DNA from: Candidatus Methylomirabilis sp.
Lineage (GTDB): Bacteria; DYJV01
DNA length: 14,874 bases
Assembly (NCBI GenBank): GCA_020722945.1
Contig: DYJV01000060.1
Location: forward strand, 1 to 14,874
Direction: 5' to 3'
Part shown: positions 2,547 to 10,138 of the stretch, one piece after another
How the letters are laid out: each line of letters begins with the position of its first letter
How positions within the stretch are numbered: the first letter of the stretch is position 1
Made by a program: the position numbers and the translations under genes
Notes under the pieces: model-generated
Seen by the model: the letters and a program-made list of their open reading frames with translations, nothing else
Told to the model about the DNA's origin: nothing
The model's database searches: none

Positions 2547-3056
2547 TTGAATAGTGCAGAGTATTTTATTTCAAAGCTCAGATTAGAAAAGCATATAAAG
2601 GGTGGGTATTTCAGAGAGATATACAGAAGTTCTATAAGTATAGGAGATAAATGTTTACACTCTAATATTTGTGGTGATAGATCACTTCTAACAACCATAT
2701 ATTTTCTTTTAAAGTCAGGGGAAGTATCAAAATTTCATAAGTTAAAATTTGATGAGATATGGTTTCATCACTATGGCTCATCGCTTCTTTTACATGTTAT
2801 AGAGGAAAATGGAGATTATAAACCTTTAAAACTGGGTCTCGATATTGAAAATGGTGAGTTACCTCAAGTATTAGTAAAAGGTAATTCTATATTTGGAGCT
2901 GAGCTACTTCATAAGAATAGCTTTTCACTATTAAGTTGTATAATTGCTCCAGGTTTTGACTATGCAGATTTTACTTTGTATAAAGATAAAGAGCTTTTGA
3001 AATTATATCCTCAACATGCTGAGATTATAAAGAAACTTAATTCAGAGAAAGATTAG
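2547..3056 (+). CDS. Cupin-superfamily protein, DUF985 (YML079w-like)
   Basis: This is a small single-domain protein of 169 residues related to the DUF985 cupins. Family hallmarks are GGYFREIYRS (19-28), a central TIYFLLKSGEVSKFHKLKFD segment followed by E-I-W-F-H-H-Y-G (50-77), and APGFDYADFTL (134-144) near the end. Proteins of this fold are double-stranded beta-barrels, and many are dimers. No substrate is established for this branch, so the biochemical role is unknown. I place the start at the TTG at 2547 because AAAGGTGG (2534-2541) is a good Shine-Dalgarno sequence five bases upstream. A GTG at 2538 would add three residues but lies inside that ribosome binding site. The gene lies between priA and the aromatic operon leader with no overlap, so there is no strong functional context. 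Confidence 0.88.
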   Translation: MNSAEYFISKLRLEKHIKGGYFREIYRSSISIGDKCLHSNICGDRSLLTTIYFLLKSGEVSKFHKLKFDEIWFHHYGSSLLLHVIEENGDYKPLKLGLDIENGELPQVLVKGNSIFGAELLHKNSFSLLSCIIAPGFDYADFTLYKDKELLKLYPQHAEIIKKLNSEKD

Positions 3057-3099: not shown

Positions 3100-3128
3100 T
3101 TGACAATCTCTTTTTTTTCTATTAATTA
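3100..3128 (+). promoter_or_regulatory. Possible promoter of the aromatic amino acid operon
   Basis: A perfect TTGACA -35 hexamer lies at 3100-3105. The -10 is not clear: TAATTA at 3123-3128 has the right 17-bp spacing but matches poorly, TATTAA at 3120-3125 matches better at 14 bp, and TAAAAT at 3132-3137 is too far away. A start near 3130 would place the whole leader peptide and attenuator in the transcript. Confidence 0.45.
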
Positions 3129-3162
3129 GATTAAAATTTTATTTTAAAGAGGCTATTTTATA

Positions 3163-3237
3163 ATGTCTACCCATTTTAATTTTTATTTTTTTTACTTTTA
3201 TTACAACAAAACTGTTGAGGGGATCTCCTTACGGTAG
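3163..3237 (+). CDS. Phe/Tyr-rich attenuation leader peptide
   Basis: This is a 24-codon open frame, ATG to TAG, preceded by AAAGAGG (3146-3152) ten bases upstream. Codon 5 is Phe and codons 7-14 read FYFFYFYY, so five Phe and four Tyr fall within ten positions. There are no Trp codons. This composition is the signature of a leader peptide that monitors charged tRNA-Phe and tRNA-Tyr, as in E. coli pheA or trp attenuation. The last control codons (Tyr-Tyr, 3199-3204) lie just upstream of RNA segment 1 (3211-3220). The stop codon at 3235-3237 overlaps the end of segment 2, so a terminating ribosome would mask it. The four-gene operon that follows makes prephenate, Phe and Tyr. AT-rich DNA can give Phe/Tyr runs by chance, but the ribosome binding site, stop position and RNA structures all agree. 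Confidence 0.83.
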   Translation: MSTHFNFYFFYFYYNKTVEGISLR

Positions 3238-3285
3238 AGTTCTATATATTTATTATTAAGAGCCGTGGGATTTACCCCCACGGCT
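3211..3285 (+). promoter_or_regulatory. Ribosome-mediated attenuator (segments 1-4) of the aro operon
   Basis: Hand pairing gives mutually exclusive stems. The 1:2 protector pairs 3211-3220 with 3227-3235 (nine pairs, one bulged T at 3215, loop GGATCT). The 2:3 antiterminator pairs CTTACGGT (3228-3235) with GCCGTGGG (3262-3269), eight contiguous pairs of which three are G-U. The 3:4 terminator pairs 3261-3269 with 3277-3285. Inference: ribosomes stalled on the late Phe/Tyr codons cover segment 1, free segment 2, and allow 2:3 to prevent termination. Ribosomes reaching the stop codon mask segment 2, so 3:4 forms and transcription ends. No energies were computed. Confidence 0.78.
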
Positions 3286-3293
3286 TTTTTTTT
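3258..3293 (+). terminator. Intrinsic terminator (attenuator stem 3:4)
   Basis: AGCCGTGGG (3261-3269) pairs perfectly with CCCACGGCT (3277-3285) around a seven-base loop and runs directly into nine T residues (3285-3293). The stem can extend outward with A-T and G-T pairs from 3258. It sits 28 bases before the first structural gene and downstream of the leader peptide, so its role is probably conditional rather than ending the cupin gene alone. Confidence 0.92.
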
Positions 3294-3321
3294 GCCAAAA
3301 AAAATAAAGGGGGAGAAGAAA

Positions 3322-4116
3322 GTGATTGGGAAATTGATAAGAATGGGAAGGCTGAAAGACAGGGAAAGTGGTAAGTTTTTAATTCTGCCACTTGATCATG
3401 GGGTTACAGTTGGTCCAATACATGGGATCACAAATCTTAAATCTATTGTTGATATTGCTGCAAATGGAGGGGCTACTGCTGTTGTTGAGCATAAAGGTAT
3501 GGTTGAAGCAGGTTTTAGAGGAGGTGGAAAAGATATTGGATTGATAGTGCATTTATCTGCTTCTACAAATCTTTCAGAATATCCGAATACCAAAACTCTT
3601 GTTGGAACTGTTGAAGAAGCTATCAAACTTGGAGCTGATGGTGTTTCCATACATGTAAACATTGGTGATATTAATGAAAGGGAGATGTTGTCTGATTTTG
3701 GAAAGATATCAAAATGTGCATCAGAGTTTGGAGTTCCACTGCTTGCAATGGTTTATCCCCGTGGAAGTAAGATAAAAGATAGCTATGATCCAAGTTTAAT
3801 TGGACACTGTGCAAGACTTGGTGCTGAACTTGGTGCTGATATAGTAAAGGTTTCATACAGTGGAGATATAGATTCATTTGCTAAGATTGTAGAATCAACA
3901 CCTATCCCTGTTGTTATTGCAGGTGGGGAGAAGATGGAGTCAGATATTGATGTCCTCAAAATGGTTGAAGATTCCATTAAAGCAGGTGGAGCAGGAATCT
4001 CAATAGGAAGAAATATATTTCAAAGTCCGATCCCTGACAAATTGATTCAAGCATTATCACTTATAATAAAAAATGGTGAATCAGCAGATAAAGCCCATAG
4101 TTATCTTACAAAATAG
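3322..4116 (+). CDS. 2-amino-3,7-dideoxy-D-threo-hept-6-ulosonate synthase (ADH synthase)
   Basis: This class I (Schiff-base) aldolase of the DeoC/FbaB-like family condenses L-aspartate semialdehyde with a 6-deoxy-5-ketofructose 1-phosphate-derived unit. The product is the first committed intermediate of the archaeal-type route to 3-dehydroquinate, replacing DAHP synthase. The 264-residue protein shows [10 protein letters not shown] with Asp25, MVYPRG with Tyr145 and ADIVKVSY with Lys176. These fall where the acid/base Asp and Tyr and the Schiff-base Lys lie in characterised MJ0400-type enzymes. The C-terminal phosphate site is seen in AGG-E-KM and [11 protein letters not shown] choose the GTG at 3322 because AAAGGGGGAG (3307-3316) is well spaced. 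An upstream in-frame GTG at 3265 lies inside the terminator stem and would add 19 non-conserved residues. It is the first gene of the attenuator-controlled operon. Confidence 0.93.
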
Positions 4117-4161: not shown

Positions 4162-5133
4162 GTGAAAAAGGTATGGTTGAATATAGAGATTTTTAATAAA
4201 GATTTTATTACTACTGCTCTTGAGTGTGGGGTGAAAACTTTTCTTGTTAGTGACCAAGTAGTTGGAGAAGAGATTTTGAAATTGGCAAAGGTTGAAATTA
4301 TTCTCAGAAAAGATATTATTTTTTACGAATATCAAAATCAGAGTGATGAAGATAAAATTTTAGATATTTCAAGAGATAATAATCTTGTATTGGAGAGTAA
4401 AACATGGGAGATAATTCCGTGGGAGAACCTTATTGCCAAAGGTGCAAAATTTTTTGTCTTTGTAAAAAACATTGATGATATAAAAAATGCACTAAAAGTT
4501 CTTGAAATAGGTGTTTATGGAGTTATTATCAATACTGTAGATAGAGATATTTTGAAAGAGATTTTGAAGAAAGTTTACTTTAAAAAATCTATCAATCTTT
4601 CTCCTGCAAAGGTTACAAAAATAAAAATTCTTGATTCTGGAGATAGAGTCTGTGTTGATACATGCAATCTTATGTCAATAGGTGAAGGACTACTAATTGG
4701 CAACAGTAGTAACTGCCTCTTTCTTGTCCATTCAGAATCAATAGAAAATAGTTACTGTAGTCCAAGACCTTTCCGTGTTAATGCAGGACCTGTCCATGCG
4801 TATGTTATGGTTAATGAAGGGAAGACGAAATATCTTTCTGAAATAAATAGTGGTGATGAAGTTGCAATAGTTAATTATAAGGGTGAAGTTAGGGTAGGGG
4901 TGACAGGAAGAAGTAAGATCGAAGTTAGACCACTTTTAATGGTTGAAGCTATTTCTGGTGGCACAACTTACTCTGTCATACTTCAAAATGCTGAAACTAT
5001 AAATTTAGTAAAAGAAGATGGGAATCCTGTCTCTGTAACTAATTTGAAAGAGGGTGATAATGTTTTGGTATATCTTGATACGGGTGGTAGGCATTTTGGA
5101 ATAAAGATAGAGGAGAGTATAGTTGAAAAGTAG
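4162..5133 (+). CDS. 3-dehydroquinate synthase II
   Basis: This enzyme performs NAD-dependent oxidative deamination and cyclisation of ADH to 3-dehydroquinate, replacing the DAHP-dependent AroB. It is unrelated in sequence to bacterial AroB. The 323-residue length is typical. The N-terminal half (1-145) is divergent. The C-terminal half carries the family core: GDRVCVDTCNLM (160-171), GEGLLIGNSS (174-183), FLVHSES (187-193), RPFRVNAGPVHAY (202-214), YLSE (224-227) and VGVTGRSKIEVRPLLMVEA (245-263). The GTG start at 4162 follows AGGAG (4150-4154); the overlapping ATG at 4160 runs straight into a stop. It follows ADH synthase by 45 bp and overlaps the next gene by 11 bp, consistent with one polycistronic mRNA. 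Confidence 0.95.
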   Translation: MKKVWLNIEIFNKDFITTALECGVKTFLVSDQVVGEEILKLAKVEIILRKDIIFYEYQNQSDEDKILDISRDNNLVLESKTWEIIPWENLIAKGAKFFVFVKNIDDIKNALKVLEIGVYGVIINTVDRDILKEILKKVYFKKSINLSPAKVTKIKILDSGDRVCVDTCNLMSIGEGLLIGNSSNCLFLVHSESIENSYCSPRPFRVNAGPVHAYVMVNEGKTKYLSEINSGDEVAIVNYKGEVRVGVTGRSKIEVRPLLMVEAISGGTTYSVILQNAETINLVKEDGNPVSVTNLKEGDNVLVYLDTGGRHFGIKIEESIVEK

Positions 5134-5869
5134 TTTTAAAATTGGAATTATTGGTGGAAACGGGGCAATGGGCAGCTCTTTTAGAAATTTTCTTGATAAT
5201 AAGGGGTTAGATTATATTTTTTCAGATAATGAAACTGATTATTCAAATATTGATGTGGTAAAATTTTCTGATATTGTTATTTTGAGTATCTCTCTTGGTA
5301 ATTATGAAAGGATTTTAAAAGAGATATCTCCATATCTTAAAAAGGGGAAGTTGTTGGTAGATTTTGGATCATTGAAGTTAGAGTCTGTAAAATTAATGAA
5401 ATTTTTCTTCGATGGTGAGATTCTTGCCACTCACCCTCTTTTTGGACCTGATAAGAATTTTTTTGGGGAGGGAAACAGCATTGTAATTAGCAAAACTGAC
5501 CCATCTGAGAAAACAGATTTTATAATTTCACTTTTTAAGGAGAACAAGTTAAATATTGTAGAGCTTTCACCTGAGGAACATGATGAGATTATGGCATATA
5601 TACATGGATTTTACTATCTTATGAACATAACGTATATTGATATTTTAAAAAATAAGTTTCAAAATATTGATAAATTGGAAGCTTTCAAGACAACCTCTTT
5701 TAAATCTTATCTAAATTCTTTGAATAATATTTTTAATGGTAAAGATGAGCTTATCAAGTTTATCAGTTATAGTAACCCTTATATTGATAAAGTAAAAAAC
5801 GAATTTATCAATAAACTGGGCAAAGATATAAATATAGGAGATTTAAGAAATTTTTTTAAAAGAGGTTAG
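5123..5869 (+). CDS. tyrA: Prephenate (or arogenate) dehydrogenase, TyrA
   Basis: TyrA oxidatively decarboxylates prephenate to 4-hydroxyphenylpyruvate, the tyrosine branch. The protein has 248 residues. A Rossmann nucleotide site is at the N-terminus (IGIIGGNGAMG, GxGxxG glycines 12, 14 and 17). The family motif THPLFGP (103-109, His104) and a second His-rich segment, SPEEHDEIMAYIHG (149-162, His153 and His161), mark the substrate domain. It is short compared with TyrA proteins carrying chorismate mutase or ACT domains and has neither, so feedback control here is likely at the attenuator or through other enzymes. The start is TTG at 5123, with AGGAG (5111-5115) seven bases upstream and an 11-bp overlap with the DHQ synthase gene, suggesting translational coupling. 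Prephenate versus arogenate preference cannot be read from the sequence. Confidence 0.9.
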   Translation: MKSSFKIGIIGGNGAMGSSFRNFLDNKGLDYIFSDNETDYSNIDVVKFSDIVILSISLGNYERILKEISPYLKKGKLLVDFGSLKLESVKLMKFFFDGEILATHPLFGPDKNFFGEGNSIVISKTDPSEKTDFIISLFKENKLNIVELSPEEHDEIMAYIHGFYYLMNITYIDILKNKFQNIDKLEAFKTTSFKSYLNSLNNIFNGKDELIKFISYSNPYIDKVKNEFINKLGKDINIGDLRNFFKRG

Positions 5870-5885
5870 TAAAGTGGGGAGTGAG

Positions 5886-6950
5886 ATGGATAAAGATCTA
5901 ACTTATTATAGAGACAAAATAGATAAAATAGATGCACAGATAGTTGATCTTCTAAATAAAAGAGCTGATGTTTCAAAGAAAATAGGTGAGATAAAGAGGG
6001 TTCACGAGGAGGAAATAATTGATTTTTCAAGAGAGAAAGAGGTTTTTACTAAAATTTTGTCAGAGAGTAGTGAGCTGATACCAGAGGGTGATCTAAAAAA
6101 TATTTATAGGGAGATAATAGCTTCTTCTCGTAAATTACAAAAATCTTATTTTGTTAGTTTTTTGGGTCCTGAGGGTTCATTTTCAAATATTGCTTTTGAG
6201 AAGTTTTTTGGTAAAAACACAAATTTTAATTTATGTAAAGACATTAAAGATATTTTTTATGATGTTTCTAAATCTAATGCAAAATTTGGTATAGTTCCTG
6301 TAGAAAATTCAATTGAGGGGAGTGTAAATACTACTTTTGATAACCTTTTTGAATTCAATGTAAAAATATGGTGTGAATTAAGATTGAGAATAAATTTTGA
6401 TTTAATTTCATTTTCTAATAGTATTAAAAGTATAAAGAAGATTTACTCTCATCCTCATGCATTAGCACAGTGCAGAAACTTTATTAAAAATAATTTTGAA
6501 AATGTTGAGTTAGTTGAATTATCAAGCACATCTGAGAGTGTCCATTATATTAAAGATAGTAGTGAAAGTGGTGCGATTGTATCCCCAGTTGCCGCTAAAA
6601 TATACAATGTTCCTGTGTTGTCCAAAAATATTGAAGATTCATCTAACAACTTCACAAGATTTTTTGTTATATCAAATAATGAAAACCAAATAAAAGAAGG
6701 GAGTAAAACATCTTTTATCTTCTCAATTTCTCATCAACCTAAAATGTTGGCCAAAGCACTTGGAGTTGTTGCCAAATACAATCTGAATATGTGTAAAATA
6801 GAGTCAAGACCTATAAAAACAATCCCTTGGGAGTATCTATTTTTTATTGATATTGAGGGGAAATGCAGTGAAGATTTTATTGAAGATTTTAAAAAAGAGA
6901 CAACTTTTTTAAAAAAATTAGGGACATACCCTTTAGAGATGCTCGATTAG
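5886..6950 (+). CDS. pheA: Bifunctional chorismate mutase / prephenate dehydratase (P-protein)
   Basis: PheA converts chorismate to prephenate and then to phenylpyruvate. Domains in order, from the ATG: AroQ-type chorismate mutase (about 1-85, with YYRDKIDKIDAQIVDLLNKR and the matching C-terminal helix), prephenate dehydratase (about 88-265; GPEGSFS at 94-100, VPVENSIEGSV at 137-147, SHPHALAQC at 188-196 and the catalytic TRF at 257-259), and a C-terminal ACT domain (about 275-350) with ESRP at 306-309, the Phe-binding signature for feedback inhibition. Two starts are plausible: GTG at 5874 (AGAGG eight bases upstream) and ATG at 5886 (GGGAG four bases upstream), differing by four residues. 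I report the ATG. It ends the four-gene aromatic operon. No strong hairpin terminator follows the stop. Confidence 0.94.
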   Translation: MDKDLTYYRDKIDKIDAQIVDLLNKRADVSKKIGEIKRVHEEEIIDFSREKEVFTKILSESSELIPEGDLKNIYREIIASSRKLQKSYFVSFLGPEGSFSNIAFEKFFGKNTNFNLCKDIKDIFYDVSKSNAKFGIVPVENSIEGSVNTTFDNLFEFNVKIWCELRLRINFDLISFSNSIKSIKKIYSHPHALAQCRNFIKNNFENVELVELSSTSESVHYIKDSSESGAIVSPVAAKIYNVPVLSKNIEDSSNNFTRFFVISNNENQIKEGSKTSFIFSISHQPKMLAKALGVVAKYNLNMCKIESRPIKTIPWEYLFFIDIEGKCSEDFIEDFKKETTFLKKLGTYPLEMLD

Positions 6951-7007: not shown

Positions 7008-7022
7008 TTTTTCTCACTATGA

Positions 7023-7067
7023 CCAATATGCCAAAAAAGTTGACCCCATAGATTGAAAAAAATATGG
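7023..7067 (-). repeat. Left copy of 45-bp inverted repeat flanking cfa
   Basis: Its reverse complement matches 8820-8863 with about 40 of 45 positions identical (four mismatches and one gap in a T run). The shared core is TATGGGGTCAAC and both copies end in CATATTGG. Identity stops sharply after CATATTGG on the outer side of both copies. No target-site duplication was seen. Confidence 0.8.
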
Positions 7068-8819: not shown

Positions 8820-8863
8820 CCATATTTTTTCAATTTATGGGGTCAACTATTCTGACATATTGG
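8820..8863 (+). repeat. Right copy of 45-bp inverted repeat flanking cfa
   Basis: This is the mirror partner of 7023-7067. Translated in the frame that continues downstream it gives IFSIYGVN and then SDIL; the left copy read on the minus strand gives FFSIYGVNFFGIL. Recombinase homology starts immediately after it, so the repeat edge coincides with the break in the recombinase gene. Confidence 0.8.
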
Positions 8864-9360
8864 GGCAAGTAAAAGAAAATTGTCAAAAAGTTTCTTTGCC
8901 CGACGATTGGTGGGAAAAATATTTGGATAAATTTAAAATGTGGGAAAACGAAAACAGCCAAACATCAGACCTTTTCGCTCAAAATCTCAAAACCGAACTT
9001 TCCACCATTAAAACAAAAATATATTGGCTTATGGATGGCTATTTTAAAGGCAGTTTTGAACTTGCGGGATTTCAAGAAAAGAAAAACAAACCAATGGTGG
9101 AAAAGAAAACAAAAAAGAAAAAATTGTCATATTTTGAGCGAAAAGGCAATTATTGGCTCGAACTCACGAGAAATAGGATTGTAAATGCCAACCAAGCCAA
9201 AAATCTTGTTTTGTAATATAATTTTTTGGAGAGGAAAAATTGTCTTACAAAAAATCGGCTCGAACTAATATTTGCTGTGTGGAAATTGGTGATTAATTTC
9301 AAAAACCCATGCAATTATCTTGCTGAAATGCCCGAGTGAGGCAAATTTTGCTATAAATAA
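8864..9360 (+). pseudogene. Large serine recombinase, C-terminal remnant
   Basis: The frame is open from 8773 (inside flanking DNA) to a TAA at 9214-9216. From about 8864 it reads like the C-terminal region of large serine recombinases found on phage-like and conjugative elements: QVKENCQKVSLPDDWWEKYL, a coiled-coil stretch of about 60 residues, then YFERKGNYWLELTRNRIVNA and NQAKNLVL. Reading in the same frame past the TAA gives further family-like sequence (LERKNCLTKNRLELIF, then KNP..YLAEMPE), interrupted by TGA at 9337-9339 and ending at TAA 9358-9360. The catalytic serine domain, the recombinase domain and the zinc-ribbon Cys residues are absent. It is therefore a decayed fragment and no longer a functional recombinase. 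It ends five bases from the ssrA 3' end, converging on it. The family assignment is from remembered sequence patterns. Confidence 0.72.
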
Positions 9361-9364
9361 ATTT

Positions 9365-9710
9365 TGGTGGAGGCGGTGGGACTCGAACCCACGTCCAAAG
9401 CTTTTGTTGTAAAAACCTCTACATGTTTGTTCTATGTTTTTGTCTCCTCGTATTCACTCTCATAGACAAGATTGAATAAAAGTATCCTTTCTAAGAATTC
9501 GCTCTTCTACCGAAAGGATTATCGAAGAGCTATCCTGCTAATCTACGCATTGTCTACCTTAGCAGAAATCGGGTAGCAACACGAGCTGTCTAAGCAGCTA
9601 AAGCAAATTCGTTATCTGCGATTATCTTTAACCCTGCTATTTTAAGAGTTAACAGGAATCTCTACATGCAGTTCTTACCCCAACAAACCCTGTCGAATCC
9701 ATACGCCCCC
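9365..9710 (-). ncRNA. ssrA: Transfer-messenger RNA (tmRNA)
   Basis: tmRNA rescues ribosomes stalled on broken mRNAs and adds a degradation tag. The tRNA-like ends are clear. The 5' GGGGGCG (9710-9704) pairs over seven positions, one of them G-U, with CGCCUCC (9375-9369), followed by discriminator A and an encoded CCA (9367-9365). The 5' end continues GGATTCGACAGGG, the universal tmRNA signature, and the T arm is GTGGG-TTCGAGT-CCCAC. The length is 346 nt, a one-piece tmRNA. The 5' end is the base immediately after the gatC stop codon, so the RNA probably derives from a tRNA-Ser-gatC-ssrA transcript by RNase P cleavage. No intrinsic terminator is visible beyond the CCA, where the recombinase remnant begins. 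Confidence 0.97.
9590..9619 (-). other. tmRNA proteolysis-tag reading frame
   Basis: Reading on the minus strand, UAAUC precedes the resume codon GCA, much like UAGUC in E. coli. The tag is ADNEFALAA followed by UAG, nine residues against ten in E. coli. The ALAA end is the standard recognition signal for ClpXP-type proteases. Confidence 0.88.
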
Positions 9711-9995
9711 TTATATTATTTTGGGAACCTTAAAATGCCTCCCATCAGAGGAAGGGGCATTGGATAAAGAGGAGATGGCTCCAGAATCATTTTGGACTAC
9801 ATCTTCTCTAAATGCATTACTTATCTCTACAGCATGTGCCATAGGCTCAACATTGGAAGTATCAATTTGGTTGAGCTTATCAACATATACCAGAATATCA
9901 CTCAATTTTTTTGCAAAAGAATCTATCTCCTCCTCACTTATATCAAGTTTGGCAAGATTGCTTACATAAACAACTTCATCTTTTGATAGCTTCAT
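9711..9995 (-). CDS. gatC: Asp/Glu-tRNA amidotransferase subunit C
   Basis: GatC is the small belt subunit of GatCAB, which amidates Glu-tRNA(Gln) and Asp-tRNA(Asn) to complete indirect glutaminyl- and asparaginyl-tRNA synthesis. The 94-residue protein has full family length and typical order: MKLSKDEVVYVSNLAKLDIS at the N-terminus, a helical middle (LSDILVYVDKLNQIDTSNVEP), HAVEISNAFREDVV, and the C-terminal FKVPKII. The ATG is preceded by AAAAAGG (10010-10004) with a nine-base spacer. It lies 28 bp downstream of tRNA-Ser on the same strand and its TAA directly abuts the tmRNA 5' end. gatA and gatB, often adjacent, are not in the window; ssrA occupies the downstream position. Confidence 0.95.
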   Translation of the reverse strand: MKLSKDEVVYVSNLAKLDISEEEIDSFAKKLSDILVYVDKLNQIDTSNVEPMAHAVEISNAFREDVVQNDSGAISSLSNAPSSDGRHFKVPKII

Positions 9996-10023
9996 CTTGT
10001 AATCCTTTTTACAAAAAAGATAA

Positions 10024-10116
10024 CGGAGAGAGAGGGATTTGAACCCTCGATAGAGTTTTTAAGACCCTATACTCGCTTAGCAGGCGAGCGCCTTCGACCT
10101 ACTCGGCCATCTCTCC
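10024..10116 (-). tRNA. tRNA-Ser (anticodon GCU)
   Basis: Minus strand: acceptor GGAGAGA (10116-10110) pairs with TCTCTCC (10031-10025), with discriminator G. The anticodon stem-loop CTCGC-CTGCTAA-GCGAG gives anticodon GCU, reading AGC and AGU. A long variable arm (ATAGGGT/ACTCTAT) marks a class II tRNA, and the T arm is GAGGG-TTCAAAT-CCCTC. CCA is not encoded; TTA follows. The tRNA heads the gatC-ssrA cluster. Confidence 0.97.
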
Positions 10117-10138
10117 ATCTTAAACCAATGAGCTTGAT

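Follow-up and report, generated by a model that had tools for sequence, protein, structure and literature searches.

A candidate Phe/Tyr-codon attenuator ahead of an archaeal-type aromatic operon in Candidatus Methylomirabilis, and comparable leaders on ADHS genes of Desulfobacterota

The leader and the operon behind it

The window, that is, the whole stretch of 14,874 nucleotides of Candidatus Methylomirabilis sp. DNA analyzed here, carries an archaeal-type aromatic operon in which 2-amino-3,7-dideoxy-D-threo-hept-6-ulosonate synthase (ADHS) is followed by 3-dehydroquinate synthase II (DHQS-II), tyrA and a pheA fused to chorismate mutase, with an attenuator-like leader directly 5' of ADHS. 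The features are as follows.

3100-3105, plus strand: possible -35 box TTGACA, proposed from the sequence and absent from the consensus scan output
3147-3153, plus strand: AAAGAGG, ribosome binding site (Shine-Dalgarno) of the leader, 9 nt 5' of the ATG, read from the sequence
3163-3237, plus strand: leader peptide ORF, MSTHFNFYFFYFYYNKTVEGISLR and stop, 24 codons plus stop (sequence, shuffle test)
3175-3204, plus strand: putative regulatory codons, five Phe and four Tyr among 10 codons (sequence, shuffle test)
3211-3220, plus strand: segment 1, pairing with segment 2 in a putative protector helix of -7.4 kcal/mol (folding)
3227-3235, plus strand: segment 2, the antiterminator strand, within the final leader codons and the stop codon (folding)
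3258-3269, plus strand: segment 3, common to the antiterminator (2:3, core 3262-3269) and the terminator (3:4)
3277-3293, plus strand: segment 4 and T9 tract of the intrinsic terminator (sequence, terminator scan, folding)
3322-4116, plus strand: ADHS copy 1 (NCBIfam TIGR01949, 332.5 bits, above cut-off)
4162-5133, plus strand: DHQS-II (PF01959, 367.5 bits; NF002627, above cut-off)
5123-5869, plus strand: tyrA, prephenate dehydrogenase (PF02153, PF20463)
5874-6950, plus strand: pheA, chorismate mutase / prephenate dehydratase (PF01817, PF00800; NF008865)

Since HMM searches name the last two genes as tyrA and pheA, the amino acids that would be sensed are the products made with them. The first-pass annotation had described a 24-residue leader frame with a ribosome binding site, eight consecutive Phe/Tyr codons and no Trp, and the description held on re-reading and in shuffle tests. 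The eight codons form an unbroken row at 3181-3204, with one more Phe codon at 3175. Dinucleotide shuffling of the 450-nt upstream region never gave an ORF with nine aromatic residues in 10 (100 shuffles), and shuffling of the intergenic region gave one in 1000 trials (p ~0.001), an estimate that must be read with the caveat that Phe codons are cheap here because the leader region is T-rich. The stop codon (TAG, 3235-3237) does overlap the end of segment 2, as had been proposed. The consensus scan found no promoter of good match upstream of the leader, and no clear -10 was found at the standard spacing from TTGACA.

All three stems claimed earlier were reproduced by folding, with energies consistent with an attenuation scheme. 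In the window sequence, the 1:2 helix (3211-3220 with 3227-3235) has nine pairs and one bulge (-7.4 kcal/mol). Eight pairs, of which three are G-U, make up the 2:3 helix (3228-3235 with 3262-3269; -7.0 kcal/mol), and the 3:4 helix reaches -17.1 kcal/mol, or -19.9 with an A-U extension. Taken alone, the 2:3 duplex of the window is weak (p=0.107 against shuffled spacers). The region 3145-3295 as a whole folds at -32.8 kcal/mol (z -2.7). Besides the terminator (3258-3288), the 14.9 kb contain just one more terminator-like site, two in all; shuffles give about seven for this length.

Partial folds under a stalled ribosome are thermodynamic estimates that depend on the footprint, whose edge was assumed to lie 12 bases beyond the first base of the A-site. 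With the ribosome halted at the earliest Phe/Tyr codons (A-site 3175-3184), the 2:3 helix has a probability of 0.76-0.87, since segment 1 is taken up by a small hairpin at 3204-3217. The 2:3 helix is also favored when the halt falls on the final two Tyr codons (A-site 3199-3202; 0.6-0.98). At the codons between (A-site 3193-3196) the 1:2 helix is predicted to win, and with the ribosome at the stop codon 3:4 alone remains. The earlier comparison with the geometry of E. coli trp and pheA is right in placing the stop codon in segment 2, but these folds make a simple scheme in which the ribosome masks segment 1 inexact.

Trp-codon leaders in the host genome and in a second genome of the order

The host genome (G000) has a second ADHS gene, 63% identical to the window copy, at the end of a trpEGDCFBA operon on contig C150. 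The two copies are sisters in the tree (support 100/98), suggesting one duplication after which control was divided between Phe/Tyr and Trp. The leader upstream of the host trpE, MMTNINTLTTNWWWNSKMI and stop, contains three Trp codons (Trp-Trp-Trp), which fall within the 5' arm of a long and perfect 1:2 hairpin, and it has a competing antiterminator of -18.5 kcal/mol. No Shine-Dalgarno sequence is evident before this leader. Between it and trpE stand two consecutive intrinsic terminators (L015:1559-1588 and 1602-1629).

Only one other genome of the host's order and phylum (G001) was available for comparison. Its trpE (55%) is led by MIIQNSTWCWWWNNLSFREYPR and stop, with AAAGGAG before the ATG, and the genome has two Trp leaders in all, with runs WCWWW and NYWWSWW. 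Its terminator, TTAAAAGCCGTGGG..CCCACGGCTTTTTTTTTGCC, is nearly identical to that of the window. A search with the terminator pattern GCCGTGGGN{2,12}CCCACGGC gave a single site in G000, that of the window, and two sites in G001, which lie behind the Trp leaders, with no further occurrence in either genome. Although segment 2 differs between the window (CTTACGGT) and G001 (CCCGCGGT), each version pairs with GCCGTGGG, and the position of segment 2 relative to the stop is the same in the two leaders. Based on this common terminator core and preserved segment 2 pairing, what looks like the same element would be used with different regulatory codons in the two genomes. Because the G001 contig ends inside pheA, its ADHS region lies outside the sequence seen: its missing ADHS cannot count as absence, and for the window's Phe/Tyr leader itself there is no closely related leader to compare. 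No His leader was found upstream of hisG in G000 or G001; attenuation is thus not universal in these genomes.

The two G001 Trp attenuators lie in tandem upstream of trpE (L016, contig C285, ~6590-5900, minus strand). Between them is a pair of genes for a RelB-like antitoxin and a ParE-type toxin (PF18506, PF05016), a toxin-antitoxin module that, from its position, appears to stand behind a Trp attenuator.

Leaders of ADHS genes in Desulfobacterota

In a sample of 395 Desulfobacterota genomes we examined 110 ADHS loci and counted the 109 with at least 250 nt upstream. An aromatic ORF precedes ADHS in 74 of the 109, and in 72 (66%) it is accompanied by a terminator; the same combination was found in 15 of 1231 control segments of neighboring DNA (1.2%). 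Such a leader is missing from 35 of the 109 genes, some of which are explained by ADHS not being first in its operon. The nearest named relatives of the ADHS, three Candidatus Desulfofervidaceae and one Desulfobacca, all have an aromatic leader and a terminator before the gene, with runs such as NFYYFYFWYY and FYYFSYYYFW. Trp is included in 41 of the 72 aromatic runs; another 28 contain both Phe and Tyr but no Trp. In the operons checked, ADHS and DHQS-II are followed by aroE/aroA, by pheA/aroD/aroE/aroA or by pheA/aroA/tyrA.

Retention of the leader frame and its codons among relatives, and covariation in the stems, had been named as checks on the attenuator. The relatives do keep a leader frame with aromatic codons. 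In most of their leaders segment 2 begins about five bases after the aromatic run, within the C-terminal leader codons, which would explain the conserved peptide endings (CASTFK, GLP). An antiterminator stronger than in shuffles (p<0.05) was found in 54 of the 72 leaders. Among the 18 leaders that fell short are all five of the Desulfofervidaceae-like type, which carry two successive hairpins, the second being the one scored. Also among them are several leaders of the CASTFK clade with the CTTTTAAAAG part outside the tested segment, and most of these pass once that part is included. Compensatory change in both 2:3 and 3:4 was seen in two clades. In alignment A2 (18 sequences) the 2:3 pairs are kept in 95% of cells, against 34-44% when the strands are slid; one 2:3 pair shows six U-A to C-G double changes, and three 3:4 pairs have double changes. 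Alignment A3 (25 sequences) has double changes at five 2:3 pairs and four 3:4 pairs, and its covariation score exceeds those of shuffles and slid versions, although the relatives in A2 and A3 are phylogenetically linked and shuffle counts are not probabilities.

Where the surroundings of both genes were read in Desulfobacterota with two ADHS copies, the first copy, preceded by a mixed Phe/Tyr/Trp leader, heads an ADHS-DHQSII-pheA-aroA-tyrA operon; the second has no other pathway genes alongside. Leaders of second copies have Tyr-only runs (TYYYYGY, SSYYYYGY and PYYYGY in L098, L105 and L108) or Phe-only runs (RFSFSRFFGF and IFMFRFFF in L102 and L132), and one (L099) reads Phe as well as Tyr. 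The tree, in which several forks are weak, suggests that ADHS duplications took place separately in the window's lineage and within Desulfobacterota. It is likely that ADHS, which opens the archaeal-type route in bacteria, is a recurrent target of attenuators and that, after independent duplications, each copy acquired its own leader codons, giving isozyme-specific feedback. In the window's lineage the division would be between Phe/Tyr and Trp, and in Desulfobacterota between Phe/Tyr/Trp on one copy and Tyr-only or Phe-only on the other. If so, the specificity of each ADHS isozyme would be predictable from its leader sequence, and the re-programmed leaders would form a natural series for studying how attenuator specificity changes.

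Two observations concern the terminators themselves. Desulfofervidaceae-type leaders (L027-L031) have before ADHS two GC-rich hairpins with GCCGTGG in common, possibly tandem terminators. The GCCGTGG core also recurs across phyla in aromatic attenuators (window 3262-3284; L016; L017; L034), by homology or by convergence.

Proposed mechanism, alternatives and known systems

The window element is very probably a classical ribosome-mediated transcription attenuator of the trp/pheA type. A leader ORF with a ribosome binding site lies 5' of the first gene, its clustered codons are cognate to the products of the operon, and an intrinsic terminator stands before that gene. An antiterminator that excludes the terminator is present as well, its helix in the window being weak alone and backed by the relatives and by covariation. 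The ribosome attenuation reading of the first-pass annotation is supported by the codons of the relatives, the covariation, the fold energies and the Trp-codon versions on trp operons. We infer transcription and translation of the leader, Phe/Tyr-responsive termination, the ribosome footprint positions and the promoter. As proposed, a ribosome would translate the leader while RNA polymerase transcribes it. With charged Phe- and Tyr-tRNA plentiful, the ribosome would reach the stop codon and cover segment 2, allowing the 3:4 terminator to act near 3290. When Phe- or Tyr-tRNA is short, it would stall in the Phe/Tyr run, leaving segment 2 free to capture segment 3; the 2:3 pairing would block the terminator, and ADHS, DHQS-II, tyrA and pheA would be transcribed. 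Elements of this type have probably been used repeatedly, providing separate amino-acid-specific control for duplicated ADHS genes.

The terminator might instead belong to the upstream cupin gene, which ends at 3056, and be of the ordinary intrinsic kind, with a promoter of the downstream operon after it and an ORF arisen by chance in T-rich DNA. It does lie 200 nt past the cupin gene, and Phe codons are cheap in such DNA. Nevertheless, we consider this account very improbable: the 28 bases from the T tract to the ADHS start are too few for a promoter, the ORF has a p of ~0.001, a Trp version with the same terminator core sits on the G001 trp operon, and the arrangement recurs on 66% of the relatives' ADHS genes against 1.2% of controls. 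A T-box, a riboswitch or a protein-controlled antiterminator could also sense Phe/Tyr or uncharged tRNA with no need for leader translation, the ORF being secondary, and other bacteria have T-boxes on tyrosine genes, according to one survey (PMC1262725). The window leader and 20 related loci gave no Rfam match at the gathering threshold, however; at a permissive threshold the matches were at chance level only, and the T-box covariance model did not match the window leader. Moreover, the conserved part is the in-frame run of aromatic codons, whose identity follows the gene downstream, with Trp codons on trp and only Tyr or only Phe codons on second copies of ADHS, so that a sensor of this kind is extremely unlikely.

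Codon identity also bears on whether the leader responds to translation rate in general (slow translation, antibiotics, cold) and not to Phe and Tyr specifically. Any stall ahead of segment 2 would free it, and mixed codon runs are less specific, but in each setting the codons fit the product of the controlled genes, and we give general rate sensing hardly any weight beside the attenuator responding to Phe and Tyr.

In E. coli, the ilvGMEDA and thrABC leaders each read more than one end product, and the first step of the aromatic pathway is duplicated in the DAHP synthase isozymes AroF, AroG and AroH, with end-product-specific control. The leaders studied here resemble the former in reading several amino acids and differ in that the set is aromatic, with a composition that changes from one gene copy to another (FYW, FY, Y only, F only, W). 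Unlike AroF/AroG/AroH, the duplicated enzyme is ADHS of the archaeal-type route, and specificity appears to be written in the leader codons. The earlier claim that Phe and Tyr are read together agrees with nine Phe/Tyr codons before a tyrA/pheA operon, but multi-amino-acid reading is not new in principle.

The E. coli pheA attenuator (pheL; Rfam RF01859, Phe_leader) is alike in its Phe-rich leader, its stop codon in segment 2, its 1:2, 2:3 and 3:4 alternatives and its control of prephenate dehydratase. In the window, however, Tyr codons are present, the operon starts with ADHS and DHQS-II, the phylum is different, and the score against RF01859 is 15.8 bits, below the cut-off of 55. The trp attenuators known from Proteobacteria and Actinobacteria (Rfam RF00513; PMC1262725) follow the same logic, and the host genome has a Trp-codon version on its trp operon; the window differs from them in having Phe/Tyr and not Trp codons, and the host trp operon in ending with an ADHS paralog.

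An attenuator on the ADHS/DHQS-II route, which the first-pass annotation did not know to be described, was likewise not found described in the literature searched, although an earlier mention elsewhere is possible and the element is not isolated, being common on Desulfobacterota ADHS genes. It is not mentioned in the available portions of Rodionov 2004 on delta-proteobacteria (PMC545781), Naville 2010 (PMC2965389), a regulon survey (PMC3766115) or the Actinobacteria survey (PMC1262725). In Desulfovibrio hydrothermalis an aldolase-DHQS-pheA-aroA-tyrA cluster shifts jointly under pressure (PMC4162548); the accessible text of that study mentions no attenuator or leader. The mechanism is known, and no description of its use on this target route, in this lineage and phylum or in isozyme-specific wiring turned up in the literature searched. 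A codon-read attenuator would explain how the ADHS/DHQS-II route is controlled without a regulator protein in at least two phyla, and would extend trp/pheA-type attenuation to a little-sampled phylum.

Some further features of the window and its genome were noted. A PF00793 match in the host genome (L139) was considered as a DAHP synthase and set aside, as it adjoins a CTP-synthase-like gene and looks KdsA-like by eye. A tmRNA (tag ADNEFALAA), a GatC gene and a tRNA-Ser form a cluster at 9365-10117 of the window (minus strand). The dispersed repeat TTTCAATTTATGGGGTCAACT..TGACATATTGGG occurs in inverted orientation on either side of a cyclopropane synthase gene (7008-7061 and 8825-8878), with a similar stretch upstream of the host trp operon (L015:1347-1395); it may be what is left of a small transposon.
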